From a virus: DNA of 27,652 bases. How positions within the stretch are numbered: position 1 is the stretch's first letter; each line of letters starts with the position of its first letter. The notes below the pieces were generated by a model. That model did not search any database, had not been told where the DNA came from, and was given only the letters and a program-made list of their open reading frames with translations. This document shows positions 1 through 13,888 of the stretch, piece by piece. Both the position numbers and the translations under genes were made by a program. The stretch is from positions 1 through 27,652 of IMG/VR virus record IMGVR_UViG_3300035659_000082; one strand, written 5' to 3'.

Positions 1-2
1 CT

Positions 3-698
3 GGGGTGTCTGCAAGAACACTCGGCAAAGCCGCGAAGGTGGTTGAGGCTGCCGAGGCAGACCCGGAGAAGTTCGCGCCACTCCTTGAGGAGATGGATCG
101 GACGGGGAAGGTTGATCCGTCATACCGAAAACTCGTGAAGGCCGAGCGCAAGGCCAATCCTCCTCTACCCACGGCTGGCAAGTATCGGGTGCTCTACGCT
201 GACCCGCCGTGGCCTTATGAAGATCACGGCGCCACCGTCTCCGAGAACTACGGCGGCGCGGTCAAGCACTATCCCACCATGACCATCGAGGAGATATGCG
301 CATTACCCGTGGCGCAGATCGCGGAGAAGGATAGCGTCCTGTTCCTCTGGGCGACTTCGCCGAAGCTCAACGAGGTCTTCGCGATCATCTCGGCGTGGGG
401 ATTCGCCTACAAGACCTCGATGGTCTGGAACAAGGACGCGCACAACTACGGCTATTATGTGAGTGTTCGCCACGAGTTGTTGCTGATCTCCACACGCGGA
501 TCGTGTCGCCCGGACATAGAGGAACTGCTTCCATCGGTCGTCACCATCAAGCGGTCCAACGTCCACTCCGAGAAGCCGGAGCACTTTCGCGGGATGATTG
601 ACCGGATGTACACCTACGGCAATCGGATAGAGCTGTTCGCCCGTGGCGCTGTTCCCGGTCCGTGGGTTGCTTGGGGATTGGAGGCCGACCATGCCTGA
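3..698 (+). CDS. MT-A70 family adenine DNA methyltransferase, 5' end cut by window
   Basis: MT-A70 enzymes transfer a methyl group from S-adenosylmethionine to the N6 of adenine; phage members methylate DNA, often to evade restriction. The catalytic DPPW motif is at about residues 66-69 counted from the GTG at 6, followed by the family's YGGA..HYPTM and LFLWAT segments. The frame is open to the window edge. The first visible residues (GVSARTLGKAAKV) look like the end of a ParB/Spo0J-type helix-turn-helix, which some phage MT-A70 proteins carry at the N-terminus. I therefore think the GTG at 6 is internal and the gene starts upstream. Its last 8 bases overlap the next gene. The family call is firm; the target site cannot be read from sequence. 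Confidence 0.88.
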   Translation, partial: GVSARTLGKAAKVVEAAEADPEKFAPLLEEMDRTGKVDPSYRKLVKAERKANPPLPTAGKYRVLYADPPWPYEDHGATVSENYGGAVKHYPTMTIEEICALPVAQIAEKDSVLFLWATSPKLNEVFAIISAWGFAYKTSMVWNKDAHNYGYYVSVRHELLLISTRGSCRPDIEELLPSVVTIKRSNVHSEKPEHFRGMIDRMYTYGNRIELFARGAVPGPWVAWGLEADHA

Positions 699-1257
699 GC
701 AGGTCCGACACGACGGTCGGAAGTTGCTGGAGGAAGTCAACTCCAAACCGGTGCGCAACCTGATCCGCTACATACTCAGGACGCACCTGCCACTGACCAA
801 GCATCTGACGTTTACCTTTGGGGAGTGGCGGGGCGGCGCGGATACCGACGTGACCGTGCGGCTGGACGATATAAAGGTGGAGGTCAAGTACCGCTTCCCC
901 GATAGTTTCCGGTATGCGAAACGCGATCTCCTGATGGAGTGTGTTCACCGAACCGACCTCCACACTCCGGGATGGGCGTACTACTCCGACGACGACTACC
1001 TGCTCGTGATCTTCGCCAACGGTCGGTCGGGTTGGGTGTTCCACCTGTTCCGCTGGAAAGGGTGCCTCAAGGATTGGTGGCTTGACCACGCGGCGGAATA
1101 TGCGGATACCGAAAGACCCGCTCTGAATACGAATCTCAGGGGCGAAGATACGACTACCCTCAATCGGTTCGTGCCACTCGGCGACATCCCGATCCGCTTC
1201 GTGGTAGCACTTAACGGTTGGATCGCCGATCCGCGAGCACGGGAGGAAGCGGCATGA
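691..1257 (+). CDS. Unknown protein with PD-(D/E)XK-like EVK motif
   Basis: A 188-residue protein I cannot assign to a named family. The ATG at 691 is chosen because GGAG lies 8 bases upstream and it overlaps the preceding stop by 8 bases; an upstream in-frame start at 643 would lie deep inside the methyltransferase gene. Residues 51-66 read DTDVTV...KVEVKYR. This D-x(n)-E-x-K pattern on adjacent strands recalls the PD-(D/E)XK nuclease core, with aromatic-rich strands after it. A nuclease paired with the methyltransferase just upstream could be a restriction-like pair, but that is inference. The gene ends in an ATGA overlap with a possible start at 1254. Confidence 0.62.
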   Translation: MPEQVRHDGRKLLEEVNSKPVRNLIRYILRTHLPLTKHLTFTFGEWRGGADTDVTVRLDDIKVEVKYRFPDSFRYAKRDLLMECVHRTDLHTPGWAYYSDDDYLLVIFANGRSGWVFHLFRWKGCLKDWWLDHAAEYADTERPALNTNLRGEDTTTLNRFVPLGDIPIRFVVALNGWIADPRAREEAA

Positions 1258-1433
1258 CAGTGAATACTTTGGCCCGCGCTACAGCTTCGTGCAGCACTCC
1301 AACGACCAGCCAAGGGTGCGGGCCTTCAATTTGCCCTGCGCAAGACAACAGAATACCGAGTCGGAGAGCAGATCGAGCGGAGCAGACGCGCGGGGCAATT
1401 CAATTCAGACAAACAGACGAGGAGGCAAACGAG
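1258..1433 (+). other. Intergenic stretch, possible decayed gene
   Basis: No confident gene. The ATG at 1254 is coupled to the upstream stop and has a good ribosome site, but its frame is low-complexity. Two other frames look more like protein: one reads EYFGPRYSFVQHSNDQPRV from about 1263, the other reads FALRKTTEYRVGEQIERS near its 3' end. A gene broken by indels would give this picture, though chance open frames in GC-rich DNA could too. An 11-base helix with one G.U pair (1331-1341 with 1388-1398) is the only clear structure. Confidence 0.3.
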
Positions 1434-1694
1434 ATGATTAAACTGGGAAGCATGGTCCGCGACAAGATCACCGGGTTCGTCGGCATCGCCATCGGGCGTA
1501 CGACGTGGCTCAACGGATGCAACCGGTGGGGCGTTCAGGGGCTGGACCTGCATGAGGGCAGACCAACGGAAGTCGTGTGGATTGACTCGGTGCAGCTTGC
1601 GGTGGTTCCCGACGAGCAGACGCCAGCTACTAAAGCGACCGGGACCGAGGTAGGGGGCCCGCAGCAAGATCCTCCCCCATTGACGGGAGGTTAG
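1434..1694 (+). CDS. Small conserved phage protein (GF.GIA-type)
   Basis: An 86-residue protein. The stretch VRDKITGFVGIAIGRTTWLN followed by NGC.RWGVQGLDL resembles a widespread small phage protein of unknown role, whose members read roughly V.DK.TGF.GI...RT..LNGC..YGV. The start at 1434 follows GAGGAGG at 1418-1424. An alternative start at 1254, in ATGA overlap with the previous gene and behind GGGAGGA, would add 60 residues in the same frame. Those residues are low-complexity and not protein-like, so I prefer 1434. The C-terminus (TPATKATGTEVGG) looks disordered. Function unknown. Confidence 0.72.
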   Translation: MIKLGSMVRDKITGFVGIAIGRTTWLNGCNRWGVQGLDLHEGRPTEVVWIDSVQLAVVPDEQTPATKATGTEVGGPQQDPPPLTGG

Positions 1695-1698
1695 TTTT
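1671..1698 (+). terminator. Weak terminator-like hairpin
   Basis: CCTCCC (1671-1676) can pair with GGGAGG (1685-1690), and TTAGTTTT follows at 1691-1698. The hairpin overlaps the stop of the upstream gene. The stem is short and the T-run is interrupted, so termination is likely to be partial at most. Confidence 0.35.
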
Positions 1699-1835
1699 CG
1701 GCGAAGCCAGGTCGGAGGACTCGCCAGCGTCGGAGGGACCAGTGAGAGGCAAAATCGTTCGGCGACGGTGTACAACGGTGACTGACAAACTAAGGCTTTG
1801 CGCCGAACTACTGGCCTTCGCGTGGTCCCTCCGGC
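1691..1835 (+). ncRNA. Possible divergent third copy of the crossed three-helix RNA
   Basis: Three complementary pairs again appear in parallel order. A is 1691-1697 with 1787-1793 (7 bp). B is 1701-1708 with 1813-1821 (8 bp, one bulge). C is 1729-1741 with 1823-1835 (13 bp, one G.U pair). The A-B gap (3), B-C gap (20) and B'-C' gap (1) fit the copies at 3328 and 6901. The C-A' gap (45) and A'-B' gap (19) do not, though an extra 8-bp helix (1757-1764 with 1801-1808) would shorten them. No promoter is visible just upstream. This is much weaker than the other two copies. Alternative pairings exist, and a protein-like frame (FAPNYWPSRGPSGNQMWTL) overlaps the region. Confidence 0.35.
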
Positions 1836-1910
1836 AACCAGATGTGGACGCTCACGGACGAGCGAGTCTTGCCACGGATGGCACCACCACCTTATCGAGA
1901 GGAGGCGTGA

Positions 1911-2102
1911 ATGCTATACATCGTTCTTGAGGAGGAATGCCCGACCTGTCAGGCGGGCCGAGTCTATGATCCCTCTGTCTGCCCGATCTGCTACGGAGAG
2001 GGATTCGAGGTGAGGCGCTTTAGCTTGTCGGACTTCAAGGCATTGCTGGAGAGTGCGGAGGAGGGCAAAGGCGATGAGACTCCGATTCCAGTTGCGGGTT
2101 GA
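1911..2102 (+). CDS. Small zinc-ribbon-like protein
   Basis: A 63-residue protein with two CxxC knuckles (CPTC near residue 10 and CPIC near residue 24) followed by YGEGFE. This spacing resembles DnaJ-type or rubredoxin-like zinc knuckles. The ATG directly abuts an upstream TGA and follows GAGGAGG. Its C-terminal acidic stretch (SAEEGKGDE) overlaps the start of the next small gene. The role is unknown; such proteins are common in phage accessory regions. Confidence 0.7.
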   Translation: MLYIVLEEECPTCQAGRVYDPSVCPICYGEGFEVRRFSLSDFKALLESAEEGKGDETPIPVAG

Positions 2103-2211
2103 CGAGTTGATGCATCGCGGGGTGCTGTGGCTGGGGCTGATGCTGGCCTGGGCGCTGAGTCCGGGGATAGGCAAACGAGATGTGGAGGCACTAGATGACC
2201 AAAGTGACTGA
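2074..2211 (+). CDS. Small single-pass membrane protein
   Basis: A 45-residue reading frame with GGAGGG upstream of its ATG. It overlaps the preceding gene by 29 bases and the following gene by 17. Residues 14-33 (HRGVLWLGLMLAWALSPGIG) form one hydrophobic helix, with a basic N-terminus and an acidic C-terminus. No family is recognised. The ribosome site and the coupled layout support translation, but the gene is short and could be spurious. Confidence 0.45.
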   Translation: MRLRFQLRVDELMHRGVLWLGLMLAWALSPGIGKRDVEALDDQSD

Positions 2212-2431
2212 AACACAGTGCGATTGCGGATGTGGGGCGTCCACGTCAGACCGCATGACCCTTGGGTGGATTGATCTATGGGTGCGCTCGGCGTTCGTGG
2301 TTGTTGAGACTCTCGGTGACGACGTTGAGGACGTGACGATCATGTTCGAGGACCATTACCACTTCCGCTCTCCTAAGTGCATCACCCGATTCATAACCGA
2401 TGCGATTGCCGACGCGAAGGAGTCGCACTGA
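2195..2431 (+). CDS. Small cysteine-rich protein, tandem paralogue 1
   Basis: A 78-residue protein with an N-terminal CDCGCG cluster and a later SPKCITRF segment that may complete a metal site. It ends ADAKESH, nearly the same as AEAKESH in the next gene. The two also share a D/N-terminal cysteine pair, a central strand region and a late cysteine near RF/RNW, so they look like diverged tandem duplicates. GGAGG precedes the ATG. Function unknown. Confidence 0.7.
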   Translation: MTKVTETQCDCGCGASTSDRMTLGWIDLWVRSAFVVVETLGDDVEDVTIMFEDHYHFRSPKCITRFITDAIADAKESH

Positions 2432-2658
2432 TGAGCAGAGTTGAGGTCTTCAGATGCGACGGTCCCGACTGTTCGGAGTCGTGCGAAGGACAACTGGGTG
2501 ATGGTTGGATCACGGCCACGGGCGGCACAATCACCTTCCTTGCGCGGGATGCCGAGGACAAACATATTCCCAAACCTTCGAGTCATTGGTGCTCGTCTGC
2601 CTGCCTGAGGAACTGGGCCGATATGATGCTCGCCGAAGCGAAGGAGTCGCACTGATGA
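2414..2658 (+). repeat. 21-base direct repeat at two gene junctions
   Basis: The 21 bases at 2414-2434 recur exactly at 2638-2658, and the first 11 bases recur once more near 2789. Each full copy encodes the AKESH C-terminus, carries AAGGAG and supplies the TGATG junction to the next gene. The repeat probably dates from the gene duplication and is kept because it starts the next gene. Confidence 0.8.
2431..2655 (+). CDS. Small cysteine-rich protein, tandem paralogue 2
   Basis: A 74-residue protein that starts in a TGATG overlap with its neighbour. It has cysteine pairs CDGPDC and HWCSSACLRNW, typical of a small zinc-binding fold (the C-terminal WCS.C...W pattern recalls MYM/TRASH-like knuckles). 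Its ribosome site AAGGAG lies in the end of the upstream coding region. Because of a shared 21-base repeat, the same site starts the gene after it. Function unknown. Confidence 0.7.
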   Translation: MSRVEVFRCDGPDCSESCEGQLGDGWITATGGTITFLARDAEDKHIPKPSSHWCSSACLRNWADMMLAEAKESH

Positions 2659-2819
2659 AACCACCTGATTGGACGGGCGCTTTATGCGTCCTTACCGGCT
2701 TGATGATAGCGGCCCTGTTGGGCCTGCTCGTAGATTGGCTACACGAGCGGCGGGCGGCGCGTGAGTATTGGGCGCAGGATCATCGCGGCGAAGGAGTCCG
2801 CAGGAAGGAGCGGCGATGA
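2655..2819 (+). CDS. Small single-pass membrane protein
   Basis: A 54-residue protein. Residues about 8-28 (ALCVLTGLMIAALLGLLVDW) form a transmembrane helix, followed by a highly basic tail rich in arginine. The predicted topology is N-out, C-in. It starts in a TGATG junction with AAGGAG upstream. It is too short and too isolated from lysis genes to call a holin. Function unknown. Confidence 0.6.
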   Translation: MKPPDWTGALCVLTGLMIAALLGLLVDWLHERRAAREYWAQDHRGEGVRRKERR

Positions 2820-2908
2820 CGCAATTCGACAGATAGACCGAGAGCCGCAAGCCCTCACGGGTAGCGGCCCTCAGCGGACAACCCAATTGTCAAAGGAGAT
2901 CATAGACG
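2820..2908 (+). other. Short spacer with hairpin and 12-base repeat
   Basis: A GC-rich hairpin forms from GCCGC and GCGGC around an inner CCC/GGG stem, at about 2846-2874. A 12-base direct repeat (CCCAATTGTCAA) occurs at 2882-2893 and 2916-2927, on either side of the next start codon. The ribosome site AAAGGAG follows the first repeat. No T-run follows the hairpin. Confidence 0.4.
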
Positions 2909-3268
2909 ATGGAATCCCAATTGTCAATACCGATTCAGAACAACGAGACGAACCGCCAGATTCACGCGGCGGTCGAGTGGATCACCAAGTGCCTCGGTAG
3001 GATGGAGACTATCGAGGACCACACCTATCATTACCGCCTCGACGATCTCTCTCTCGTCTGGTGGCGAGATGAGGAATCTTCGACCATCTATCAGGACTTC
3101 CAGGTCCTATTCGCCGGGCGCGGCACGACGTGGACCTTGATTCATGATGGTGATTGGATTGCCAGATTACTGACCTTTGCGGAGGACCAACGGCGACTCG
3201 CCGAGGAGCGCTTTCGCGACGGAGAACAGTTCAGGACCAAGCTCAGGACCGGATACGCCGTGCGCTGA
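2909..3268 (+). CDS. Unknown soluble phage protein
   Basis: A 119-residue protein starting behind AAAGGAG. It has a tryptophan-rich central beta region (LVWWRDEESSTIYQDFQVLF) and a charged C-terminal helix (EDQRRLAEERFRDGEQFRTK). No family is recognised and there is no signal peptide or membrane segment. It is the last gene before the first strong promoter. Confidence 0.65.
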   Translation: MESQLSIPIQNNETNRQIHAAVEWITKCLGRMETIEDHTYHYRLDDLSLVWWRDEESSTIYQDFQVLFAGRGTTWTLIHDGDWIARLLTFAEDQRRLAEERFRDGEQFRTKLRTGYAVR

Positions 3269-3293
3269 CTATGGCGCGTCGTGGGAATTTGGC

Positions 3294-3322
3294 TTGACAC
3301 TACGAGCCGATGGTGATACAAT
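3294..3322 (+). promoter_or_regulatory. Consensus sigma-70 promoter
   Basis: TTGACA at 3294-3299 and TACAAT at 3317-3322 are separated by exactly 17 bases. The -35 box is perfect and the -10 box has five of six consensus bases. Predicted +1 is about 3329, the first bases of the left arm of the structured leader. It should be active with host polymerase alone, which suits early expression. Confidence 0.85.
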
Positions 3323-3327
3323 ATGCC

Positions 3328-3422
3328 TGTCGAGGGAACGAACAAGCCGCCACATACCAAACTCTTTGTGCCTGATCGGGCGAACGTTCCCTCGACAAGA
3401 ACGCGGCTTCCCGGTCGGGCAC
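3328..3422 (+). ncRNA. Structured leader RNA with three mutually crossing helices, copy 1
   Basis: Three complementary pairs occur in parallel order. A is 3328-3340 with 3385-3397 (13 perfect pairs). B is 3344-3350 with 3403-3409 (7 perfect). C is 3368-3380 with 3410-3422 (13 pairs, two of them G.U). The gaps are A-3-B-17-C-4-A'-5-B'-0-C'. Every helix crosses the other two, so this is a pseudoknot, not nested hairpins. The G.U pairs point to function as RNA, not DNA. Transcription should begin at the first base of A. C' ends 20 bases before the HNH start codon and just before its ribosome site, so it may act in cis on translation or as a free RNA. The same layout with different sequence recurs at 6901-7014. 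I do not recognise it as a known RNA class. Confidence 0.72.
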
Positions 3423-3442
3423 ATTCCGTTTGGAGGTATCTG

Positions 3443-3922
3443 ATGACTCTCGAAGAACGGTTTTGGTCGCATGTCAAGAAGGGCGGTCCTGATGAATGCT
3501 GGGAATGCTCAGGTTCCCCGGGACCGGGTGGCTACGGCCGCATTACGATTGGACGAAAAAACATTGCGGCACACCGGATGGCATATCAACTCGCAGTTGG
3601 TCCCATCCCCGACCGTCTCTACATATTGCACTCGTGCGACAATCGAAGGTGCTGCAACCCCGCACATCTACATCCAGGGACTCACCGAGAGAATGCGCGC
3701 GAGGCGGTGGATAGGCTCGGCATGAATTGCGGGGAGCGCAACGGTCAGGCGAAGTTGACCCCTGCGGATGTCCTCGCTATCTGCCAACTCTACGTCCCCA
3801 GGCGCGTAACCTATCGAGAACTGGCGAGCCGATTCGGAGTCTGCCCGATGCAGGTATGTCGGATTGTCCAGGGCGAACGGTGGGCGCGGGTAACCAAGGT
3901 GGCGCATGTGGCCACACGCTGA
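3443..3922 (+). CDS. HNH endonuclease, homing-type, with C-terminal helix-turn-helix
   Basis: A 159-residue HNH_3-type nuclease like the free-standing homing endonucleases found in phages. The core LHSCDNRRCCNPAHL at residues 62-76 supplies the HNH residues (H63, N72, H75) together with cysteines. The upstream YGRITIGRKN..AHRMAYQL strand-helix is typical. The C-terminal part (residues about 107-150, TPADVLAIC...TYRELASRFGV) is a DNA-binding helix-turn-helix. The ATG at 3443 follows TGGAGG; longer in-frame starts would lie in the structured leader. It is expected to cut or nick DNA at a recognised site. It has its own promoter and leader, which suggests an independently acquired unit. Confidence 0.85.
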   Translation: MTLEERFWSHVKKGGPDECWECSGSPGPGGYGRITIGRKNIAAHRMAYQLAVGPIPDRLYILHSCDNRRCCNPAHLHPGTHRENAREAVDRLGMNCGERNGQAKLTPADVLAICQLYVPRRVTYRELASRFGVCPMQVCRIVQGERWARVTKVAHVATR

Positions 3923-4142
3923 CCCCGGAGCCTCCTGGGAGCCTGTGGGTGCCGGTTGGTGGCTCTACACGAAATCTGATGGCGAAGGATATGTCGTCAA
4001 GGGGTTCGACGGGCAATGCAGTTGCTTTGGCTATAAGCGATGGGCGCACTGCAAGCATATTGATTGGCTGGAGGAATATTATGAACAACGGAGATACGAG
4101 CAAGGCGCTCGCGCCGCGCGAAAACGCGGACGAGCTGCGTAG
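3906..4142 (+). CDS. SWIM-type zinc-finger protein
   Basis: A 78-residue protein with the SWIM pattern CxCx(n)CxH in CSCFGYKRWAHCKHI (residues about 38-52), preceded by the usual strand GYVVKGFDGQ. SWIM fingers bind DNA or proteins and occur in recombination-associated factors. The C-terminus is strongly basic. It overlaps the HNH gene by 17 bases and the next gene by 62. The neighbours (directionality factor, Gam-like protein) suggest a role in recombination; that is inference. Confidence 0.75.
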   Translation: MWPHADPGASWEPVGAGWWLYTKSDGEGYVVKGFDGQCSCFGYKRWAHCKHIDWLEEYYEQRRYEQGARAARKRGRAA

Positions 4143-5343
4143 CAGGATAGAATCAGAAGTGCCGGCGTTGGTCGGCGGATTCCAACTGGGACCGCGCCGG
4201 CTGGCGAGGGTTGGAAAATTGCATCTGGGCTACAAGGTGAGTCAGGTGCGAGCCTCGGACGGCAAAGAAGTCACCTACCCGAAGGAGTGTAGTTGGTTCG
4301 TCTTCGAGGACTCCGAGGTCGAGGCGGCCCTGGTCGCCGCGGCCAAAACCTCGGATGTTGTCGAGGTAGATGGCGCCGCGCATGTCACGGCACTGGAGAT
4401 CATCTTCCCCCTGAACATTATCAAGGAGAACGCGGAGGTAGTCTTCGCGCAATACAACAGCAAACGCCAATGCCTCTGCACGAGCAGGGATGGCGTGACC
4501 GCCCGGCAGATGAACCCAGAGACGGGGAAGATCACGGAGATTCCGTGCCTCAACGAGCAATGCCCGAAACGGCAGACGACTGAGAAGAAGCGGGCCGATT
4601 GCTCGGAGGTCATGCGGATGAGATTCATCATCCCCTCTATCCCGCCCCTGGGCGTTTGGCAACTCGACACTGGTTCTACCTGGTCCAAGAACAGCGTGCT
4701 CGGGTATATGCGCACGCTGCAAGCGGAGATCACTTGCGGGCAACTCTCCGGTATCCGGCTGAGGCTGTCCCGTGCCTCGCAGATGATCCCGGACAAGAAC
4801 ACAAAGCGGCTCCAACAGCACTGGCCCCTTCACCTCGTGGCCAACATCAGCTACGACAACTACGCGGAGACACTGGCCAAGGCAAGGGCGATGACCTATA
4901 AGCCGGAGGATGTTGAAGAGTTCGACGAGGAGCCGGACGAGACCATCGTCCCGACGAACGGCGATGGTGTGATAGTTGACCCGGAGAGTGGCGAGATCCT
5001 GCTTCCCGAGGAACAGCCGATGGACGCGGAATTCACACCCGCCGGTGAACCCGAGGATGAACCCGTGGGCGAGCCGCCAGCACCAGCACCCGCGGTGGAA
5101 CCCAAGCCGCCGGGAGACAAACCCACCAACAACGAGCAGGTTAATGTCATCCTCGGATTGGCCGAGCGAGTCTGGACCGACCGGGAGACGGCGGCGAGCG
5201 AGTTCAAAGCGTGGCTCGCGCAATCGTTCGATGGTGCGGAGACCGTACGCCAGTTGACCTACCAGCAGGCGATGCGCGCCATCGCTGGCCTGCAGAAGAT
5301 ACTAAACGATCGGGCGAGAGCCGGGAAAGGGGCAAAGCGATGA
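4081..5343 (+). CDS. phiC31 Gp3-like recombination directionality factor family protein
   Basis: A 420-residue protein. The N-terminal 300 residues follow the Gp3-like family: RRLARVGKLHLGYK near residue 40, a KEVTYPKECSWFVF strand, an FPLNI...FAQY segment, a cysteine cluster (QCLC, PCLNEQC, ADC), FIIPSIPPLGVWQLDTGS and IRLRLS. In phiC31, Gp3 binds the serine integrase and switches it to excision; many lytic phages carry relatives of unknown role. An acidic, proline-rich linker is followed by a C-terminal helical domain (NNEQVNVILGLAERVW...LTYQQAMRAIAGL) like those at the ends of phage recombination proteins. GGAGG precedes the ATG at 4081. The frame is open further upstream, but that part overlaps HNH and SWIM and is not protein-like. 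Confidence 0.72.
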   Translation: MNNGDTSKALAPRENADELRSRIESEVPALVGGFQLGPRRLARVGKLHLGYKVSQVRASDGKEVTYPKECSWFVFEDSEVEAALVAAAKTSDVVEVDGAAHVTALEIIFPLNIIKENAEVVFAQYNSKRQCLCTSRDGVTARQMNPETGKITEIPCLNEQCPKRQTTEKKRADCSEVMRMRFIIPSIPPLGVWQLDTGSTWSKNSVLGYMRTLQAEITCGQLSGIRLRLSRASQMIPDKNTKRLQQHWPLHLVANISYDNYAETLAKARAMTYKPEDVEEFDEEPDETIVPTNGDGVIVDPESGEILLPEEQPMDAEFTPAGEPEDEPVGEPPAPAPAVEPKPPGDKPTNNEQVNVILGLAERVWTDRETAASEFKAWLAQSFDGAETVRQLTYQQAMRAIAGLQKILNDRARAGKGAKR

Positions 5344-5696
5344 GCAAACGCATAATCCACGGGGTCGAGGTAAACGTAAGGACGAAGCCGCTGGCTTCTG
5401 ACAGTTACAAGAAGTATCCCTGCGAGACGCCGGGATGTACCGACAAGGTGGAGGGTCACTGCGGACAAGAGAACTGGGTAAGTGCCTGGAAAATCCGCAA
5501 AGCATCTATCAAGGAGTTCGGGGCAGTGCTTTGCCTGGGGTGCCGGATGGAAAGGCGAGAGGACGCACGCGATCCTGCCGAGGTTGAGGCAGATCGGCGA
5601 TACTGGGAGGGGCGGAACAAACAGCTTGAGACCCTGACGCTTGATGATCTCATCAACGGCAGAACTGATGGCGGAGCGAAAGGGGCGAAGCGATGA
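5340..5696 (+). CDS. Unknown cysteine-containing protein
   Basis: A 118-residue protein coupled to the previous gene by an ATGA overlap, behind AAAGGGG. Cysteines in YPCETPGCTDKVEGHCGQ and VLCLGCRMER could form a zinc site. The C-terminal half is charged and helical (DPAEVEADRRYWEGRNKQLETLTLDDL). No family is recognised. The tail GGAKGAKR resembles the RAGKGAKR tail of the gene before it because both encode the ribosome site of the next gene. Confidence 0.65.
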   Translation: MSKRIIHGVEVNVRTKPLASDSYKKYPCETPGCTDKVEGHCGQENWVSAWKIRKASIKEFGAVLCLGCRMERREDARDPAEVEADRRYWEGRNKQLETLTLDDLINGRTDGGAKGAKR

Positions 5697-6307
5697 GCAC
5701 ACCAGAGCTGTCCTTCAGTGAGGTTGACCACCGACTTGCGGAGTTCCGGGCCGCGTGCCCGCACTCCGAGATCGTCTACGACGAGGAAGTCGGCGCGATT
5801 CTTGATACTGAGACCGGCGAGTTGCTCTGGGTGGCGCCGCCCGATCCCGCCCTCAGTGAGCGCGAGATTGCCGAGTGGGTTGGCGAGCGCCGGGCCAGGG
5901 CAAACGCGAGGCTGGCGGGGTTGGTCGCCGAGAAGGACGCGTGGTTGGAGAAGGTCGCCGCGCAATTCGACTCGCTCATCACCCGCAAGGTGAAGTATAT
6001 CGAGCACCTGGATGAGTCGTTCAGGCCAGTGCTCGACCGGCTGGCCCACCAGGAGCTCGGCGGCCGCAAGGAGCGGACCTGCCGGATCGGGCTATTGACG
6101 CTGCGGCTGCGGCGGACCAGGCCGCGGATTGATGTGGAGATCGAGCAGGTTGCGTTGGAGTGGGCGCGCGAGCACTGCGCCGGCGCGATCCGCACGACCG
6201 AGCGGCTACTAAAGTCGGAGATCCCGCCGGAACTGATCCAGGAGTTCGGCATCGAATCCGGCCTGAGCTATTACCCGGGCGGCGAGGACGAGCTGATTAT
6301 CGAGTAG
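5693..6307 (+). CDS. Mu Gam-like host-nuclease inhibitor
   Basis: A 204-residue protein. Mu Gam-type proteins bind double-stranded DNA ends and shield them from RecBCD-like exonucleases. The match lies in residues 60-180: a long coiled-coil helix (EREIAEWVGERRARANARLAGLVAEKD, given here in part), a second helix ending in SFRPVLDRLAHQEL, then GRKERTCRIGLLTLRLRRTR and EWAREHC..AIRTTERLLKSEI, the strand-plus-helix end typical of the family. It sits with the recombination genes, as expected. Other coiled-coil phage proteins such as Gp157 are less likely because they lack the RTCRIGLLTLR segment. Confidence 0.75.
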   Translation: MSTPELSFSEVDHRLAEFRAACPHSEIVYDEEVGAILDTETGELLWVAPPDPALSEREIAEWVGERRARANARLAGLVAEKDAWLEKVAAQFDSLITRKVKYIEHLDESFRPVLDRLAHQELGGRKERTCRIGLLTLRLRRTRPRIDVEIEQVALEWAREHCAGAIRTTERLLKSEIPPELIQEFGIESGLSYYPGGEDELIIE

Positions 6308-6317
6308 GAGGAGTTTG

Positions 6318-6626
6318 ATGCGAGTTCGGGATTTGACTCTCAAGAAGTCTGAATACAAGGGGCGTCCGACCGATGCCAGCGACGAAGCCTGCCCATGCCG
6401 CCCATGCTACAACGCGCACGACTGTGGCAATCCCAAGCCTATCTACAAGAACGGCCTTCACGTCTCCAACAACTACAAGGCCGGAATAGACATGCAGTGC
6501 GCCACTCGATATAACCGCGGATGCCCTGGTCCAAAGCCGGAACCTGTGCATCAGTACTCGGGTCAGCGCGGGCAGAAATGCCTGCGTTGCGGTCAAAGTC
6601 GGGGCAGGGTTTGGGGGGTGCATTGA
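6318..6626 (+). CDS. Cysteine-rich small protein
   Basis: A 102-residue protein with many cysteines (ACPCRPCYNAHDC, MQCATRYNRGC, KCLRC), likely to bind one or two zinc ions. The ATG at 6318 follows GGAGGAG. It lies between the Gam-like gene and another zinc-knuckle protein. No family is recognised. Confidence 0.68.
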   Translation: MRVRDLTLKKSEYKGRPTDASDEACPCRPCYNAHDCGNPKPIYKNGLHVSNNYKAGIDMQCATRYNRGCPGPKPEPVHQYSGQRGQKCLRCGQSRGRVWGVH

Positions 6627-6892
6627 TGGGCATCGTAACCCGAATCCAATGCGATGTTTGCGGCGAGGAGGTGCCACCGGGCGGGATCTACCTCGCCATA
6701 AACCGAACGATGGTGGCGGAGATGCCTGCCGGCTCGGGGTCGGGCAGGATCGTCATTGATGATCTCGAAGAGCCAGTCCAGGTCTGTGGCCAGAAGTGTT
6801 ATCACCAGTGGCACGCGCGGAAACTGGCGGAGTTCTACGAGCCGAAGCGGGAGTCTGAAAAAGCGCTTGACAGGGGTGCCGTGGCGGAGTAG
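6626..6892 (+). CDS. Small zinc-knuckle protein
   Basis: An 88-residue protein starting in a TGATG overlap. CDVCGEEV near the N-terminus and VCGQKCYHQWHARKL near residue 55 make a treble-clef-like pair of knuckles, as in small phage zinc proteins. Its last codons contain the -35 region and stop of the second strong promoter, so transcription of the next unit starts inside this gene's end. Confidence 0.68.
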   Translation: MGIVTRIQCDVCGEEVPPGGIYLAINRTMVAEMPAGSGSGRIVIDDLEEPVQVCGQKCYHQWHARKLAEFYEPKRESEKALDRGAVAE

Positions 6893-6895
6893 AAT
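6867..6895 (+). promoter_or_regulatory. Consensus sigma-70 promoter
   Basis: TTGACA at 6867-6872 and TAGAAT at 6890-6895 are separated by exactly 17 bases, the same design as the promoter at 3294. Predicted +1 is about 6901-6902, which is the first base of the left arm of the second structured leader. The promoter overlaps the end of the preceding gene. Confidence 0.85.
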
Positions 6896-6900
6896 GGGGA

Positions 6901-7014
6901 TGGTAAGATCACGATGATAGACAGACGGGTAGCAAACTGCATAACGACACCCCCAGTGCCGGGATTCCAGACTCGTGATCTTACCAATTACCTGTCTGTC
7001 GGAGTTCCGGCACT
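6901..7014 (+). ncRNA. Structured leader RNA with three mutually crossing helices, copy 2
   Basis: The architecture matches 3328-3422, with unrelated sequence in the helices. A is 6901-6914 with 6973-6986 (14 perfect pairs). B is 6920-6931 with 6989-7000 (12 pairs, one G.U). C is 6955-6968 with 7001-7014 (14 pairs, two G.U). The gaps are A-5-B-23-C-4-A'-2-B'-0-C'. The 4-base C-A' gap and the zero B'-C' gap are identical to copy 1. The single-stranded segment between B and C carries CAAACT in both copies (3358-3363 and 6933-6938). C' ends 29 bases before the ATG of the PD-(D/E)XK gene, whose ribosome site lies between them. Two copies with the same fold and different bases are covariation-type support for an RNA structure. 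Confidence 0.72.
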
Positions 7015-7043
7015 TACTTTTGTACGGGGACAAGGAGCCACGG

Positions 7044-7583
7044 ATGGCTGTCAACATCTCCAAGTTTAGTATCCCGACGGAGTTCAACGGCATCCGTTTT
7101 CGCAGTAAGTTGGAAGCAGATTGGGCGGCCTTCTTCGAGCGACACCGAATCATCTACGCCTTCGAGCCGGAGGGATTCGATCTTGACGGTGTGTATTACC
7201 TCCCGGACTTTTGGCTGCCCCGACTCCGCACGTTCGTCGAAATCAAGGGTTGCCTGGACGGGAACGACGAAGCAAAGCTCGAAGCGCTGGCGCGGCACTG
7301 CGCCGATCCGCACGATTGGGAGGATAAGCGCCCACTCCTGATTCTTGCCGAAGCGCCGGTTGGTGAGGAGTTCACGAATCCCTATTGTTCTCCTTCCGGC
7401 TTCTACATCATCTCACGCCGCGCCGGATTGTACCAGTGTCGGAGATGCGGCAACTGGTGGTTCGCGAATCCTTCGGGGCCGCTCAAGTGCCGCGCCTGCG
7501 GCGAGTGGCGGAGTGACGACCACATAACACGGATACACGGATACCACGCCTGCCCGGATTGCGAGGCGCTCTGCGATGCCTGA
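7044..7583 (+). CDS. PD-(D/E)XK nuclease with C-terminal zinc ribbon
   Basis: A 179-residue protein. Residues 17-68 carry the nuclease core in order: FRSKLEADWA (E24), YLPDFWL (D55) and FVEIKG (E66, K68). This is the E-D-ExK arrangement of phage and T7 endonuclease I/Holliday-resolvase-type PD-(D/E)XK enzymes. Cysteine pairs CRRCG, CRACG and CPDC in residues about 131-175 form a zinc ribbon, presumably for DNA binding. AAGGAG precedes the ATG at 7044. It has its own promoter and structured leader and overlaps the primase gene by 8 bases, so the same transcript should continue into the primase. A replication or recombination nuclease, or a mobile endonuclease, are both possible. Confidence 0.78.
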   Translation: MAVNISKFSIPTEFNGIRFRSKLEADWAAFFERHRIIYAFEPEGFDLDGVYYLPDFWLPRLRTFVEIKGCLDGNDEAKLEALARHCADPHDWEDKRPLLILAEAPVGEEFTNPYCSPSGFYIISRRAGLYQCRRCGNWWFANPSGPLKCRACGEWRSDDHITRIHGYHACPDCEALCDA

Positions 7584-9738
7584 TGTGTTCGATAATTCCG
7601 ACTGCCTCGACTTCCTCATGTGGTACTTCAAAGGGCGCGAGGATGTAATCGCCGAGCAGCGACCTACCGGGGCATATATCAAGGTGCTTCAGCCCTGGAC
7701 TGAGGCGCTGGCGAAGTTGCACCTCACCGGCAAGCGGACCTTCGGGTTGTACCTGATCTCGGATGCCAAGGAGTCCCTGACCTATCACACAGTCATAGAC
7801 ATAGACGAACTAGACCAGACCAAACTCATGGCGCTCACGGGAGCGCTTACCAAGATCGGGTTGACCGATCAGTACTACGTTCTGGAGTTCTCCGGCTCCA
7901 AGGGATACCACATCTGGATTCGTTACGAGGATGCAGTTCCCGCGCGGGAAGCACGCGCTTTCGGGCACCTGATTGTGCGCTTGGCCAATCTCAAGGTTGA
8001 CGACGTAGAGGTATTCCCCAAGCAGGACACGATAGCCAGCACCGGATTCGGCAATCTGGTAAAGCTGCCGCTGGGCCTGCACCAGAAGAGCGGCAAGGAG
8101 AGCGCAATCCTCGGGCCTACCCCGCTGGACTCAACGCGCCTCCTCTCTGGAGATGAGTTGCGGCGCTTCTTAGTCGAGCATGATGTAGTGCCGGAAGTAG
8201 AAAAGGCACCGCCGCCGAACGAAGAAGTAGACGGTCGGCCCGGCAAAAGTCGCCAGTTGCCCTGCGTGACGGCGATGCTACGCGGCGTCGGAGAAGGGAA
8301 GCGGGATAACGTCCTCTTCCAGCTGATCCTGCATCTGCGGCGAACACTCGACCAGGCAGGCACGATTGCCGCGCTCAGACAATGGGATGCTCGAAACAAG
8401 CCGCCACTGGGAGCAGACGTTATCGAGCGCAAGGTGCGTAATGCCTGGAACTCGCCTGCGCGGGGGCTCGCCTGCGACAAGGATTGGATGGCGCCCTTCT
8501 GCAAGCGCGATAACTGCCCGGTCTTCGCCAAGCCGCAGGTCAGACCTCTTCCCCCTCCTGCAAACGGACGCGGCGGGCTGGAGGAGCAGAGGACGCTCCT
8601 GGCGGAGGCCGTCCCCGAGTCTGGCTTCTTGCATGACTACGTAGCATTTGCGATAGAGGCGACGGATGCGCCGGAAGTCTTCCATCTATTCTGCGGCCTG
8701 AGTGCTCTGAGTGCATTGATCGGGCGCCGGATCTGGCTGCCTTTTGGCGATGGCGAGATATACCCGAACCTCTGGACCGTTATCATATCCGGTTCGAGCC
8801 TATACCACAAGACGAGTAGCCTGAACATCGCCGTGAGGATGCTGCGAGAGATAAGCGAGGGGCCGGGGTTGATACTGCCCAACGAGTTCAGCCCGGAGGT
8901 GCTGATATCCAACCTGGCCGAGCAGCCGAACGGCCTCTTTGTGTGGTCCGAGATCAAGAGCGCCCTGTCTATGATGGAGCGATCCTATATGGCTGGCACG
9001 AAGGAACTGCTTACCGAACTCTACGACTGCCCCGATAGATACACGCGCCGCCTCAAGGGGCAGGAGTATGTAATCGTGAATCCCGTCGTCAGCGTCCTCG
9101 CGGCAACTACGTTGGACTGGCTGATTGCCGGAATCAAGCAAGGAGATGTGGCGGGAGGGTTCCTGGCCCGATTTATCTTTGTACCGGCCACGGCAAAAGC
9201 GCGAGAAGAGGCACTGCCCCCGCCGACGGACAAGCGCCGTCGAAGGGAAATCGCGCAGCAGCTCGCACGATGCGGACTCGCCGACGGAGCCGTTGACTTC
9301 ACCCTCGTTCGCCGGACATACGAGGACTGGTACTATAAGACGGTTGACGACCTCAACCAGTACCCGGATAGGGAATTATTCGCTCCCTTCTGGAGTCGCC
9401 TGACCATCTACGCCATTAAGATCGCGATGCTGTTGGAAGCCTCCAGCACCCGCGATGTGCTGATACGGCCGGAGACCATGCAACAAGCAATCGCCGTCAT
9501 CGAATACCTCAAGGCGAGCATACGGAATCTGCTCACGCGGGAGTTGCAGTTGTCCAAGGAACACAAGTCCATCGAGTCCGTATTCCGCGTTATCGAATCT
9601 ATGGGGGCGGCGACCAATCGAGATATATTGAGGCAGACGCACATGCTGGACAAGGATGTGCAGCCGATACTGCAAACACTATGCCGGGCCGGACGGGTGA
9701 AGTGCGAGAACAGAACGTACCAGATAGTGGGCGCGTAG
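7576..9738 (+). CDS. Primase-helicase: AEP-type primase fused to DUF3987-like ATPase
   Basis: A 720-residue replication protein. Residues about 60-200 are an archaeo-eukaryotic-type primase of the kind found in TOTE systems and phages: DID at 75-77, SGSKGYHIW at 106-114 and VKLPLGLH further on are the catalytic and nucleotide-binding motifs. Residues about 225-320 look like a PriCT-type domain with a closing C/H cluster (CKRDNCPVF). Residues about 350-620 resemble the DUF3987 helicase-like ATPase (YPNLWTVIISGSS, GLFVWSEIKSAL, GGFLARFIFV). The Walker A loop reads GSSLYHKTS (406-414), with histidine where the second glycine of GxxxxGK[ST] is expected. A C-terminal winged-helix-like segment follows. 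It should prime and unwind phage DNA. Confidence 0.82.
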   Translation: MPDVFDNSDCLDFLMWYFKGREDVIAEQRPTGAYIKVLQPWTEALAKLHLTGKRTFGLYLISDAKESLTYHTVIDIDELDQTKLMALTGALTKIGLTDQYYVLEFSGSKGYHIWIRYEDAVPAREARAFGHLIVRLANLKVDDVEVFPKQDTIASTGFGNLVKLPLGLHQKSGKESAILGPTPLDSTRLLSGDELRRFLVEHDVVPEVEKAPPPNEEVDGRPGKSRQLPCVTAMLRGVGEGKRDNVLFQLILHLRRTLDQAGTIAALRQWDARNKPPLGADVIERKVRNAWNSPARGLACDKDWMAPFCKRDNCPVFAKPQVRPLPPPANGRGGLEEQRTLLAEAVPESGFLHDYVAFAIEATDAPEVFHLFCGLSALSALIGRRIWLPFGDGEIYPNLWTVIISGSSLYHKTSSLNIAVRMLREISEGPGLILPNEFSPEVLISNLAEQPNGLFVWSEIKSALSMMERSYMAGTKELLTELYDCPDRYTRRLKGQEYVIVNPVVSVLAATTLDWLIAGIKQGDVAGGFLARFIFVPATAKAREEALPPPTDKRRRREIAQQLARCGLADGAVDFTLVRRTYEDWYYKTVDDLNQYPDRELFAPFWSRLTIYAIKIAMLLEASSTRDVLIRPETMQQAIAVIEYLKASIRNLLTRELQLSKEHKSIESVFRVIESMGAATNRDILRQTHMLDKDVQPILQTLCRAGRVKCENRTYQIVGA

Positions 9739-9950
9739 ACTGTCCCAAGGTGTCGCATTTGAGCGTGGGACACTCTGTGACACCTGGGACAGAGGCGAAA
9801 ACTGTCCCAATTTGTCCCAGCCTGTCACACCGTAACAGTGACAGATTATCCGTTACATACAAGAACAAAATACCTTTTAGAATAGTCACTGTCCCACTAT
9901 ATATACACATACTTACCACCCACCCACATATACATGTAATAGAGAGGGTA
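9739..9950 (+). repeat. Repeat-rich non-coding region, candidate replication origin
   Basis: The 7-mer TGTCCCA or its complement occurs six times in 160 bases: 9741-9747, 9766-9772 (-), 9785-9791 (-), 9803-9809, 9813-9819 and 9890-9896. GTGACA or its complement occurs at 9777-9782, 9823-9828 and 9838-9843, and again downstream at 9978-9983 and 9985-9990. Inverted pairs form hairpins, for example 9785-9792 with 9802-9809. The 3' part (9846-9940) is markedly AT-rich compared with its surroundings. Iterons beside an AT-rich stretch directly after a primase-helicase gene suggest an origin. An operator array or a partial terminator is also possible. Confidence 0.5.
9878..9883 (+). promoter_or_regulatory. 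Weak -10 candidate (TAGAAT)
   Basis: TAGAAT lies in the AT-rich part of the region. The best upstream match to a -35 box, TTACAT at 9853-9858, is 19 bases away and poor. It may start the transcript for the modification genes, but support is weak. Confidence 0.25.
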
Positions 9951-10037
9951 ATGAGAGTGGATACATGGAGGAGACTTGTGACACGTGACACTTGGCGCTT
10001 CCTTGAGATCGAGGAGAGGCAGAAGGAGGCAGCCTGA
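9951..10037 (+). CDS. Possible 28-residue peptide
   Basis: ATG at 9951 opens a 28-residue basic and aromatic frame (MRVDTWRRLVTRDTWRFLEI...) that ends one base before the next gene's ATG. Its end contains AGGAGG, the ribosome site of that gene. A GAGGG lies very close upstream of its own start. It may be a translated leader coupled to 10039; it could equally be chance. Confidence 0.3.
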   Translation: MRVDTWRRLVTRDTWRFLEIEERQKEAA

Positions 10038-10038
10038 G

Positions 10039-10239
10039 ATGAGTGAGGAACGCTGGCGGATTGTGTTCACAAAGAAGGGTCCGGTGCATTACGACTTTGG
10101 GACGGAGAGCCGAACGACACCATGCAAGATATTCTGGTATGCGTGTGAGTGTTTGCCCGATGAAGATGCAATCAAACGCCGCCATTGTAAGAACTGCAAC
10201 CGGATCCTGGCGGCGAGGAAGCGAGGTAAACGAGCATGA
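10039..10239 (+). CDS. Small zinc-ribbon protein
   Basis: A 66-residue protein with AAGGAGG before its ATG. Cysteines in PCKIFWYACECL and HCKNCNRIL form a probable zinc site, and the C-terminus is basic (AARKRGKRA). It ends in an ATGA overlap with the next gene. No family is recognised. Confidence 0.65.
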   Translation: MSEERWRIVFTKKGPVHYDFGTESRTTPCKIFWYACECLPDEDAIKRRHCKNCNRILAARKRGKRA

Positions 10240-10631
10240 GAGACCATCTTGCCGAACTGAAGAATCAAATATCTGCCGCGCTGGATGAACTAGACCGGTC
10301 TGAGGGTGGAGAAACCCGATCTGGCAGAGAACGAGCGACTCCGCCTGCAGACCGAGTGGTGCGGCAGGTGGACGGGCAATTCAGGCGATCCGGCGCGAGG
10401 CGCGCGAGTCCAAAGTTCCCGCGGAGGCCGACCAACGCGGCCAAGGCGCCGATTGATGACGGCAGGCCCCGTTGCTGCGAATGCGGCGCGGTGCTGACGA
10501 ACTGGCCGGACGGAGTGGCCGCGAGGAACGTGAGATGCAAAAAGTGCGAGTTGAAGAGGAACCCGGACGCCTATGGAGGCACGATACCGCACGCAAGGTC
10601 GCACCTGGTGCGGTGCGAGGTCTTGGGGTGA
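10236..10631 (+). CDS. Zinc-ribbon protein, possibly frameshifted
   Basis: A 131-residue frame. The ends look genuine: an N-terminal helix (HLAELKNQISAALDELDRS) and a C-terminal zinc ribbon (RCCECGAVL...RCKKCELKR). The middle is an arginine/proline-rich stretch unlike its surroundings, while the other two frames there read VEKPDLAENERLRLQTEW and AIQAIRREARESKVPAEAD, which look more like normal helices. Two compensating indels (real or assembly errors) could explain this; GC-rich shadow frames could too. Function unknown. Confidence 0.5.
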   Translation: MRDHLAELKNQISAALDELDRSEGGETRSGRERATPPADRVVRQVDGQFRRSGARRASPKFPRRPTNAAKAPIDDGRPRCCECGAVLTNWPDGVAARNVRCKKCELKRNPDAYGGTIPHARSHLVRCEVLG

Positions 10632-10641
10632 GGCCAAAGAG

Positions 10642-11880
10642 ATGACACCATACTTCGAGTCGGCGAACGTCGTCATCTACTGCGCAGACGCACTTGAGGC
10701 GCTCCGGGAGATGCCGAACGAGTCGGTTCACTGTATCGTGACCTCTCCTCCATATCACGGTTTAAGGAGGTATATTGACGATGACGATCCGGCTAAGAAG
10801 CATGAGATCGGCCTCGAATCCACGGTCGGTGATTGGGTAGCCAAACTGGTTGAGGTGTTCGCCGAGTGCAAACGGGTGCTGCGCTCGGACGGCACGATGT
10901 GGATATGTTGCGGAGATGCCTACGCCAGCGGCAAGGGAACATGCTTCAATCCCGGGGGCGGGAACGGTTCGCTCGGCAAAGAGCGCAAGGCGGCGGGCGC
11001 GCATCCGCTGAACCGTGGCAACGTATCCGACTTGGTGAAGATGGGCCTCAAACCAAAGAACTTGTTGGGCCTCCCGTGGCGCTTGGCGTTCGCGCTGCAG
11101 GAGGACGGGTGGATACTTCGGAGCGACATAGCAATCGTGAAGCGCGCACCTATGCCGGAGTCGGTAAGGGATCGCCCCTCAAAGTCGTGGGAACACCTGT
11201 TTATGTTCGCAAAGTCGAGCCGGTACTATTGGGATGGATTCGCCGTTCGAGAGAGCGGCAGTGAGGATAGCCACGGTGGGGGGCGTCCCTCTAACGGCAG
11301 GAAGCATCACCTGGGGGGCGATCCGTCCAGGCACAGCGGCCTGGATACCACGGAACCCGCTGGGGACGCCGGTCGCAACATGCGTGACGCCATCTGGCTG
11401 AGTCCCGAACCCTCGAATCTCCCGCATTATGCGGCTTACCCCCGCGCCCTTGTGCGTCCTTGCATACGCGCAGGCACGAGCGAGAGGGGCGTATGCCCGA
11501 AGTGTGGGAAGGGGTGGGAGAGGATTGTGGCTCTCCACGATAGCGGCAGGCGGCAGAAGATGGGTGACGGATGGGTGACCGGCGCCGGCAGCCACGGCAC
11601 GATTCACCCCAACGGAGCTGAACGCGGCGAAGGCGGTAAGCCTGTATTGGCGGCGACGACCCTCGGCTGGCGTCCCTCCTGCACCTGCGAAGATGCTGGC
11701 GATCCGATCCCGGCAACGGTACTCGATCCGTTCGTCGGCAGCGGAACAACTCTCCTCGTGGCGGTTGAGGAGAGCAGGCGAAGCATCGGCATAGACTTGT
11801 CCGAGGCGTACTGCGAGCTGGCAGTCAAGCGGCTTTACGACAAAGCCCCCCTATTGGCGGCTGCGGAGGCCCGGCGATGA
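10642..11880 (+). CDS. Beta-class N4-cytosine/N6-adenine DNA methyltransferase
   Basis: A 412-residue enzyme. The catalytic TSPPY motif is at residues 34-38 and the AdoMet-binding motif LDPFVGSGTTLLVA near 362-375, so motif IV precedes motif I with the target-recognition region between, the beta-class order. TSPPY fits the N4/N6 family; which base it modifies cannot be told. The middle contains a CxxC zinc-like pair (CPKCGKGW) and YPRALVRPCIRAG, usual in this family. The ATG at 10642 lies 10 bases after the previous stop with only a weak GAGG-type site. It modifies phage or host DNA and likely protects against restriction. Confidence 0.88.
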   Translation: MTPYFESANVVIYCADALEALREMPNESVHCIVTSPPYHGLRRYIDDDDPAKKHEIGLESTVGDWVAKLVEVFAECKRVLRSDGTMWICCGDAYASGKGTCFNPGGGNGSLGKERKAAGAHPLNRGNVSDLVKMGLKPKNLLGLPWRLAFALQEDGWILRSDIAIVKRAPMPESVRDRPSKSWEHLFMFAKSSRYYWDGFAVRESGSEDSHGGGRPSNGRKHHLGGDPSRHSGLDTTEPAGDAGRNMRDAIWLSPEPSNLPHYAAYPRALVRPCIRAGTSERGVCPKCGKGWERIVALHDSGRRQKMGDGWVTGAGSHGTIHPNGAERGEGGKPVLAATTLGWRPSCTCEDAGDPIPATVLDPFVGSGTTLLVAVEESRRSIGIDLSEAYCELAVKRLYDKAPLLAAAEARR

Positions 11881-12170
11881 TAACCGCCCGCGTCACCAAC
11901 CTGCGGATCGAGCAGCATGCCTTCTCACTGACGGGCGGGATCGCCGAGGCTTACGTGTTTGACTGGACGGTGCACACAGACACCTGGGCGGTTGACGCCA
12001 AACTCGTCCGCGAAGCCCTGAAGCGCGAAGTGCCCGCGGCTGATCGCGACTGGGATCCGGTCGGGCGGCGGTGGTCGGTGAAGGTGGAGTATCACCAGGC
12101 GCTCTGCCGGATATTCGACAGGTTCAATGAGGACGTGAAGGCGCTGGCGAACCAGCCGGCGCTGTTTTGA
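11877..12170 (+). CDS. Small HARP-like protein of unknown role
   Basis: A 97-residue protein in ATGA overlap with the methyltransferase. The segment REVPAADRDWDPVGRRWSV recalls the P.R.WDP..R.W.V pattern of HARP-type modules next to SNF2 helicases and of small phage proteins. No catalytic motif is seen. Being coupled to the methyltransferase suggests a shared task, but this is inference. Confidence 0.6.
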   Translation: MITARVTNLRIEQHAFSLTGGIAEAYVFDWTVHTDTWAVDAKLVREALKREVPAADRDWDPVGRRWSVKVEYHQALCRIFDRFNEDVKALANQPALF

Positions 12171-12182
12171 AGGAGGGAGAGA

Positions 12183-12494
12183 ATGGCTCTAAACAAGACT
12201 GGGATTGAATATTTGGATCGGAGCTGGAACCCTGCCCACGGCTGCACCAGGGGTTGTGGCTATTGTTGGGCAGCGAAGATGGCGAAGCGCCTGGCGGCGA
12301 TGGGTGTGCGCGGATACGATCCGGCTGACCCGATGAGACCGACGGTGCACCACGAACGATTGCAGGAACCAGCTCGGCTGAATAAGGCGTCATGTATCGG
12401 CGTCGGGTTCATGGGTGATTTGTTTGATCCGGCGTTTTCCGACGAGATCATCTGGCAGGCAGTAGTGGAGGAAATAACGGAGATACGCCCATGA
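12183..12494 (+). pseudogene. N-terminal piece of a Gp37/Gp68 (DUF5131) gene
   Basis: A 103-residue frame behind GAAGGAGGGAG. It matches the start of the phage Gp37/Gp68 family: TGIEYLDRSWNPAHGCTRGC, the CxxxCxxC radical-SAM-like cluster (CTRGCGYC), AKMAKRLAAMG, DPMRPTVHHERL and CIGVGFMGDLFD. Full-length relatives are about twice as long and continue with a FLTKRP-type motif. Here the frame stops at ITEIRP, exactly where the next gene's ATG begins (ATGA overlap). The missing C-terminus reappears downstream at 13158-13280 in the same phase. The fragment keeps the metal cluster and a good ribosome site, so a short product may still be made. Confidence 0.78.
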
Positions 12495-13885: not shown

Positions 13886-13888
13886 GGG

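Follow-up and report, generated by a model that had tools for sequence, protein, structure and literature searches.

Why should a phage set the same elaborate RNA ahead of two nuclease genes of unrelated fold? The question is raised by the virus record IMGVR_UViG_3300035659_000082 of IMG/VR, whose 27,652 bases, with most genes on the + strand, are called here the window. A preliminary description of this DNA pointed to two places where a strong promoter is followed by an RNA with crossed helices (RNA 1 and RNA 2 below) and then by a nuclease gene, encoding an HNH enzyme in one case and a PD-(D/E)XK enzyme in the other. The two RNAs have counterparts in other phages, and together they constitute a family of leader RNAs that probably throttles the nuclease genes behind it.

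The two RNAs of the window

Both RNAs are intergenic, lie on the + strand, and follow sigma-70-type promoters that match the consensus at 11 of 12 positions: TTGACA-N17-TACAAT at 3294–3322 for RNA 1 and TTGACA-N17-TAGAAT at 6867–6895 for RNA 2. Within positions 1–16000, the + strand has no other strong promoter match. RNA 1 occupies 3328–3423 (predicted +1 at G3329) and RNA 2 occupies 6901–7014 (predicted +1 at G6902). In each, complementarity and helix scans point to three interleaved helices, with 5' arms A, B, and C followed by their partners in the same order (ABCA'B'C'), the arrangement of an L-type pseudoknot. In RNA 1, helix A has 13 base pairs (3328–3340 with 3385–3397), B has 7 (3344–3350 with 3403–3409), and C has 14 (3367–3380 with 3410–3423), about 34 in all. 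In RNA 2, the corresponding helices have 14 (6901–6914 with 6973–6986), 12 (6920–6931 with 6989–7000), and 14 (6955–6968 with 7001–7014), a total of about 40. Helix A begins 6 nucleotides past the end of the -10 hexamer in both RNAs, which makes helix A the expected start of the transcript, and the placement of both RNAs at the +1 of a TTGACA-N17-TA(C/G)AAT promoter, as first described, is borne out.

The crossed design is not what chance would produce. In a scan of both strands of the window, the places of RNA 1 and RNA 2 scored 95.5 and 87.0, above all of 12 dinucleotide shuffles, the best scores of which ranged from 69.5 to 75.5. In a scan with tighter geometry, the next (third) place in the window reached 65.0, and shuffled phage DNA (1.68 Mb) topped out at 72. 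The summed duplex energies of the three helices, which exclude knot penalties, are -60.7 and -65.6 kcal/mol; folds of these stretches that are free of pseudoknots get no lower than -35.5 and -36.0. It is from the complementarity that we infer that the three-helix fold actually forms.

The geometry of the two RNAs is much alike. The spacers of RNA 1 and RNA 2 measure 3 and 5 nucleotides from A to B, 4 and 4 from C to A', and 0 and 0 from B' to C', short enough that all three helices would meet at one junction. The linker between A' and B' has 5 nucleotides where helix B has 7 base pairs (RNA 1) and 2 nucleotides where it has 12 (RNA 2), lengths that, judging from the coordinates, would be expected if helix B lay alongside helix A. 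Since the two RNAs have almost no sequence in common, their like order, spacing, and promoter position do not come from recent copying.

Behind helix C of RNA 1 comes a U-rich tract, TTCCGTTT (3424–3431), terminator-like and among the weakest of the set, then a Shine-Dalgarno (SD) sequence, GGAGG (3432–3436). Behind RNA 2 come TTACTTTTGT (7014–7023), past the GC core of helix C, and AGGAG (7033–7037). The preliminary description placed a nuclease gene within 30 bases of each RNA, and this too was found: the genes start 19 and 29 nucleotides after the end of C', respectively. The first (3443–3922) encodes an HNH_3 endonuclease of 159 amino acids (Pfam PF13392, E-value 1.4e-13; PHROG endonucleases). 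The second (7044–7583) encodes a protein of 179 amino acids with no Pfam match, which PHROG matches place among endonuclease/Holliday-junction-resolvase families and in which E24, D55, E66, and K68 of the PD-(D/E)XK motif are invariant in an alignment with six phage relatives; its zinc ribbon (CxxC pairs) was recognized by eye only. It overlaps the next gene of the operon (7576–9738), encoding a protein with AEP primase and DUF3987 domains (Pfam PF22548 and PF13148). In relatives, the PD-(D/E)XK gene is tightly packed among early or replication genes, commonly with a primase or helicase gene as its immediate downstream neighbor, and has no leader. It therefore looks like a resident of the replication module rather than a mobile gene, and the RNA is not simply part of that gene's family.

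Some further features of the window deserve mention. The -10 box of promoter 2 (TAGAAT, 6890–6895) holds the stop codon of the upstream gene, and in one of the members described below (L220) the -10 box likewise overlaps the end of the upstream gene. On the minus strand, an 11/12 promoter match, TTGACA-N17-TATGAT (2927–2899), lies at the start of a + strand gene. A third cluster of inverted repeats (1696–1835) was considered as a copy of the RNA and rejected, its score falling in the range of the shuffles and a nested fold explaining it. The intergenic region concerned (1695–1870) contains a 13-base-pair inverted repeat (1729–1741 with 1823–1835) and other crossing complementarity, and it precedes a small gene at 1911 with no promoter. 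A search for relatives of the window through its primase, terminase, and portal proteins found no prophage; it yielded one 9.6-kb contig (L056), which holds late genes only, and otherwise distant terminases. The portal gene of L056 (930–3950) has an intein-like insertion (CLLGSTPCEAPGG... to ...NGVVSSNC) that the portal gene of the window lacks, and on the opposite strand of the insertion (3776–3030) there is a frame of 248 codons that by eye resembles a VSR-type homing endonuclease.

Members in other phages

Further members were sought in three ways. Loci around relatives of the two nucleases were scanned (54 for HNH and 80 for PD-(D/E)XK); none of the 54 HNH loci held a member RNA, and three of the 80 PD-(D/E)XK loci (L096, L100, and L101) had a matching promoter and knot. 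A blind DNA pattern (the promoter, 6 nucleotides, GTC, a gap, and GACARGMA) was then run over 2.9 million viral contigs and gave 50 loci, most of them unrelated promoters and not members; L165, L169, and L187 proved on full inspection to be new members. Finally, whole contigs of member phages were scanned, with contigs of HNH phages added. The former gave L220, L220b (a second copy in the locus of L220), L226, and L227, and the latter gave L251. The family thus stands at 13 members in 8 phage genomes, 2 in the window and 11 in seven other phage contigs. One contig (G003) carries three copies; the window, G004, and G005 carry two each. The phages of the window and of the first six contigs found to hold a member are unrelated (51–61% G+C), with only scattered proteins alike, mostly at 22–60% identity.

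In a promoter-anchored scan for three helices, clear members scored 99–128, and shuffled DNA (2.48 Mb) did not exceed 83; for two helices, the corresponding figures were 85–109 and 74.5 (3.62 Mb of shuffled DNA). In another 1.14 Mb of DNA, taken from other phages, the three-helix scan found nothing above the null, and in the scanned loci and contigs most phage genes for HNH and PD-(D/E)XK nucleases are without the RNA. Three members (L101, L169, and L187), in which helices are interrupted or the promoter is weaker, are each less secure taken alone; what places them in the family is the pattern, the spacing of six nucleotides, and the like order of helices. In L251, A' is more distant; the three-helix scan therefore passed it over, and it came to light on inspection by eye and in the two-helix scan. 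Searches by DNA similarity with RNA 1, RNA 2, the RNA of L100, and the stretch of L227 (RNA plus gene) against phages, and with RNA 1 against plasmids, returned chance matches or none.

Several candidates were set aside. The first extra matches of a loose scan (L045, L010, and L008) had no matching promoter or lay inside open frames. Another (L214, on the minus strand of G001 at 52322–52435) scored 93 and was not counted, being weak on inspection: a perfect TTGACA-N17-TATAAT is followed by GTCGGCCAGGGC, a weaker ABCABC pattern, and a frame of 79 codons, making it a possible member. The contig G010 (L233 and L234) has six near-consensus, near-identical strong promoters, at 23906, 25019, 27798, 41653, 44292, and 45475, whose initial sequence is repeated; GTAAGGTTGATnAAGCAA comes after four of the six. 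No knots follow, and they are best regarded as a separate repeated set of promoters.

What the members have in common is more structure than sequence. All have the order ABCA'B'C', exactly 6 nucleotides from the -10 box to a G at +1, and that G paired in helix A; after each RNA there is a gene that runs in its direction. Two helices per member usually have 10 or more base pairs, and in most members the junction spacers are short (2–5 nucleotides from A to B, 0–4 from C to A', and 0–3 from B' to C'). Little sequence is common to the members beyond short stretches. Helix A shows compensatory changes among them (GTCGAGGG/CCCTCGAC, GTCGAAGG/CCTTCGAC, GTCACAGG/CCTGTGAC, and GCTGAGGG/CCCTCAGC), as does helix B (TTTGCC/GGCAAA versus TTTACC/GGTAAA). 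In pairwise alignment of the RNAs, many pairs exceed their shuffles (up to 29.5 versus 6.5), which supports common descent. After the last G-C pair of the core of C' there is a U-rich tract, with T at 74 of 110 positions in 11 members. The helices end before the SD sequence in every member examined, and for most the computed accessibility of the SD sequence changes little between free folding and folding with the knot held (from 0.14 to 0.22 for RNA 1, from 0.64 to 0.48 for RNA 2, and from 0.39 to 0.46 for L226). It rises clearly, towards an open SD sequence, only in L101 and L220. A short CATA motif stands before helix C, in the linker loop between B and C, in RNA 1, RNA 2, L096, L100, L165, and L226, and is a possible tertiary or protein contact.

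Genes behind the RNA

A nuclease supported by a profile is encoded directly behind the RNA in 9 of the 13 members. Five are HNH enzymes: HNH_3 behind RNA 1 and L101, HNH behind L165, HNH_3 with AP2 behind L169, and NUMOD4 with HNH_3 behind L227. Two are PD-(D/E)XK enzymes (RNA 2 and L100), one is TnpB-like, with a Cas12f1-like TNB domain (L096), and one is a T5orf172/MUG113 protein (L220), which we take to belong to the GIY-YIG superfamily. The count rises to 10 with L220b, whose cargo of 129 amino acids matches no profile and is included for a GIY-YIG-like motif seen by eye. Four unrelated nuclease folds are thus represented. The remaining three members precede other genes, encoding an N6/N4 DNA methyltransferase (L226), a replication-initiation protein (L251), and an unassigned protein (L187).

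Is this more than would be expected by chance? RNA 1, RNA 2, and L100 were left out of the test, as they had been given or chosen for their gene. Among the ten members not chosen by neighbor, six precede profile-supported nucleases and one more a probable nuclease. The chance of six in ten is 5e-9 if the frequency of nucleases is taken as 12 in about 550 genes, 1.5e-6 if it is taken as 5%, and 1e-4 if 10%, figures that are approximate because the gene counts come from greedy counting of open reading frames. None of 56 other strong promoters in seven contigs precedes a nuclease, and 30 of the 56 have no gene start within 350 nucleotides. The preliminary description took the RNA to be the constant partner and the nuclease the variable one, and it asked whether other instances of the RNA also precede nuclease genes. 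By and large they do, and the nucleases do vary; however, the three other cargos show that the link is not exclusive.

Likeness among the RNAs does not track the type of nuclease. The RNA of L169 (HNH) resembles that of L220 (GIY-YIG), L101 (HNH) resembles L220b (GIY-YIG), and L100 (PD-(D/E)XK) resembles L169 (HNH). In G005, two homing endonuclease genes, those of L169 (HNH_3-AP2) and L227 (NUMOD4-HNH_3), are on opposite strands with about 3.5 kb between them. Each has a knot of its own in front, and the two knots differ in sequence.

Possible modes of action

The promoter, the fixed predicted +1, the order and spacing of the helices, the U tract, and the cargo can all be read from the DNA. 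Intrinsic terminators are typically marked by a GC-rich stem with a U tract behind it, and attenuator leaders have a similar layout: a promoter, a structured leader, a GC-rich stem with a U tract, and then the gene. Here the terminator-like stem would be an arm of an interlocked pseudoknot, with no known ligand or leader peptide. It is the terminator-like C-C' and the U tract that incline us, tentatively, towards a family of phage leaders acting in cis as a structure-programmed attenuator. By sequence, the unit comprises its own promoter, a paired G at +1, and three interleaved helices at one three-way junction, ending in the GC-rich helix C, the U-rich tract, and then the ribosome-binding site of a gene, usually for a DNA endonuclease. 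On leaving RNA polymerase, A' would pair with A, then B' with B, and then C' with C. At the junction, C would be kept beside the emerging C', so that C-C' closes at the U tract, and this closure would end most transcripts, a fraction reading through into the nuclease gene; stopping there would limit the output of nuclease. Helix A, by locking up the 5' end, may also protect the message. With such a unit, a strong promoter could be retained ahead of mobile and replication-module nucleases and yet little enzyme be made. A terminator-like leader, an idea absent from the preliminary description, seems to fit the U-rich tract after C' best.

Several points weigh against the attenuator. RNA 1 has a weak U tract (TTCCGTTT), a U-rich stretch before an SD sequence could instead serve ribosome binding, and the anchor for the p value of the U tract was chosen after looking. 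A simple hairpin is enough for a terminator, so attenuation alone leaves the knot unexplained. It would also be an attenuator with no known regulator or signal. There is hardly any gap between B and C in L101, L187, and L220, which may keep the outer part of C from forming.

Perhaps the knot instead serves to protect. A paired and knotted 5' end might block decay that depends on the 5' end, or exonucleases, and so shield the nuclease message with no regulation at all. The paired G at +1 in every member, the conservation of structure over sequence, and an SD sequence whose accessibility the knot hardly alters are all as one would wish, but a plain hairpin would suffice, and the U tract and the nuclease link are left unexplained; we regard a mere stabilizer or insulator as unlikely. 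Another thought is that the RNA, at the start of an early transcript, binds RNA polymerase so that later terminators are ignored, as with put of phage HK022. The position at +1 of phage promoters, including those of the replication operon behind RNA 2 and of replication-type genes behind L100 and L251, would suit this role. An RNA read by polymerase should, however, keep some sequence, and these have little in common; nor would the nuclease link be explained, and we give the idea scant credence. A guide or cofactor for mobile nucleases, one of the roles first proposed, would account for a constant RNA adjoining nucleases, one of them TnpB-like, and interleaved inverted repeats might also act at the level of DNA in homing. 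However, four nuclease folds make a guide or cofactor improbable, we know of no HNH_3, PD-(D/E)XK, or GIY-YIG enzyme of these families that uses a guide, OMEGA/HEARO RNAs are represented by no Rfam match and by a TnpB-like cargo in only 1 of 13 members, and the fixed position of the promoter relative to +1 speaks for an RNA rather than a DNA element. Either form of the proposal seems far-fetched.

An RNA acting in trans would make different sense of the layout. A compact, abundant RNA of about 90–115 nucleotides might bind and restrain the nuclease made by read-through, as type III toxin-antitoxin RNAs do. In the published arrangement of ToxIN, CptIN, and TenpIN, one promoter is followed by a pseudoknotted RNA with a terminator-like end and then by a nuclease gene (PMC5086642), and much the same is found here, with the GC-rich helix C and the U-rich tract as a possible terminator between RNA and gene, and nucleases behind 10 of 13 members. 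However, type III antitoxins are tandem repeat arrays of H-type pseudoknots, whereas each member here is a single ABCABC unit, and the toxins are ToxN-like endoribonucleases, whereas here they would be DNA nucleases (HNH, PD-(D/E)XK, TnpB, and GIY-YIG) together with three non-nucleases. Two features that define type III systems, the tandem repeats and the nuclease fold, thus fail. The four unrelated folds and three other cargos behind one RNA design speak against a trans role in general, as does a likeness of RNAs that is independent of nuclease type (L169/L220, L101/L220b, and L100/L169). On balance we think it improbable, though not implausible, and consider it doubtful that promoter and trans-acting RNA form a mobile module able to restrain whatever DNA nuclease lies behind it, be it HNH, PD-(D/E)XK, GIY-YIG, or TnpB.

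The preliminary description also entertained a translation switch. Leader structures do limit the expression of the T4-type homing endonucleases I-TevI, MobE, and SegB (PMC3014915), and the RNAs here hold a comparable position ahead of nuclease genes, where they might hide or expose the ribosome-binding site. But the T4-type structures cover that site, whereas the helices here stop before the SD sequence in all members examined, and its accessibility, much alike with and without the knot in most members, is not consistently affected. Simple sequestration therefore does not fit, and such a switch appears very unlikely. The leader of T4 gene 32 also has a pseudoknot ahead of a gene for DNA metabolism (PMC3014915), but that one consists of two coaxial helices, serves autoregulation by gp32, and differs in topology.

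The family appears to be previously undescribed. Covariance models of Rfam 15, at gathering score, gave no match in the window and none in the eight member-carrying loci except one transfer RNA elsewhere; RNA 1 gave only sub-threshold matches to microRNAs and small nucleolar RNAs. We found no description in the literature on phage leader RNAs, homing endonucleases, and pseudoknots (open-licence papers only, so not proof). By order alone, as judged from complementarity, the members share the crossing of L-type or "pseudotrefoil" pseudoknots, of which one survey counted 51 natural sequences as against 1688 of H-type (PMC3390330) and which have been called exotic (PMC4708108). What marks the present family is that two of its helices mostly have at least 10 base pairs and that the fold is tied to a promoter and to nuclease genes.

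The family, then, combines a rare pseudoknot order with a strong statistical link to DNA endonucleases of four unrelated folds, spread over unrelated phages, and Rfam offered no counterpart to it. Since its helices vary in sequence and keep their order and spacing, it escapes the usual searches by homology and by covariance, from which pseudoknots are excluded, and a search by descriptor may reveal many more members. The family offers a natural system for asking how an interlocked RNA folds as it is made, and a testable answer to the question of how phages control nucleases that are potentially self-destructive or selfish.

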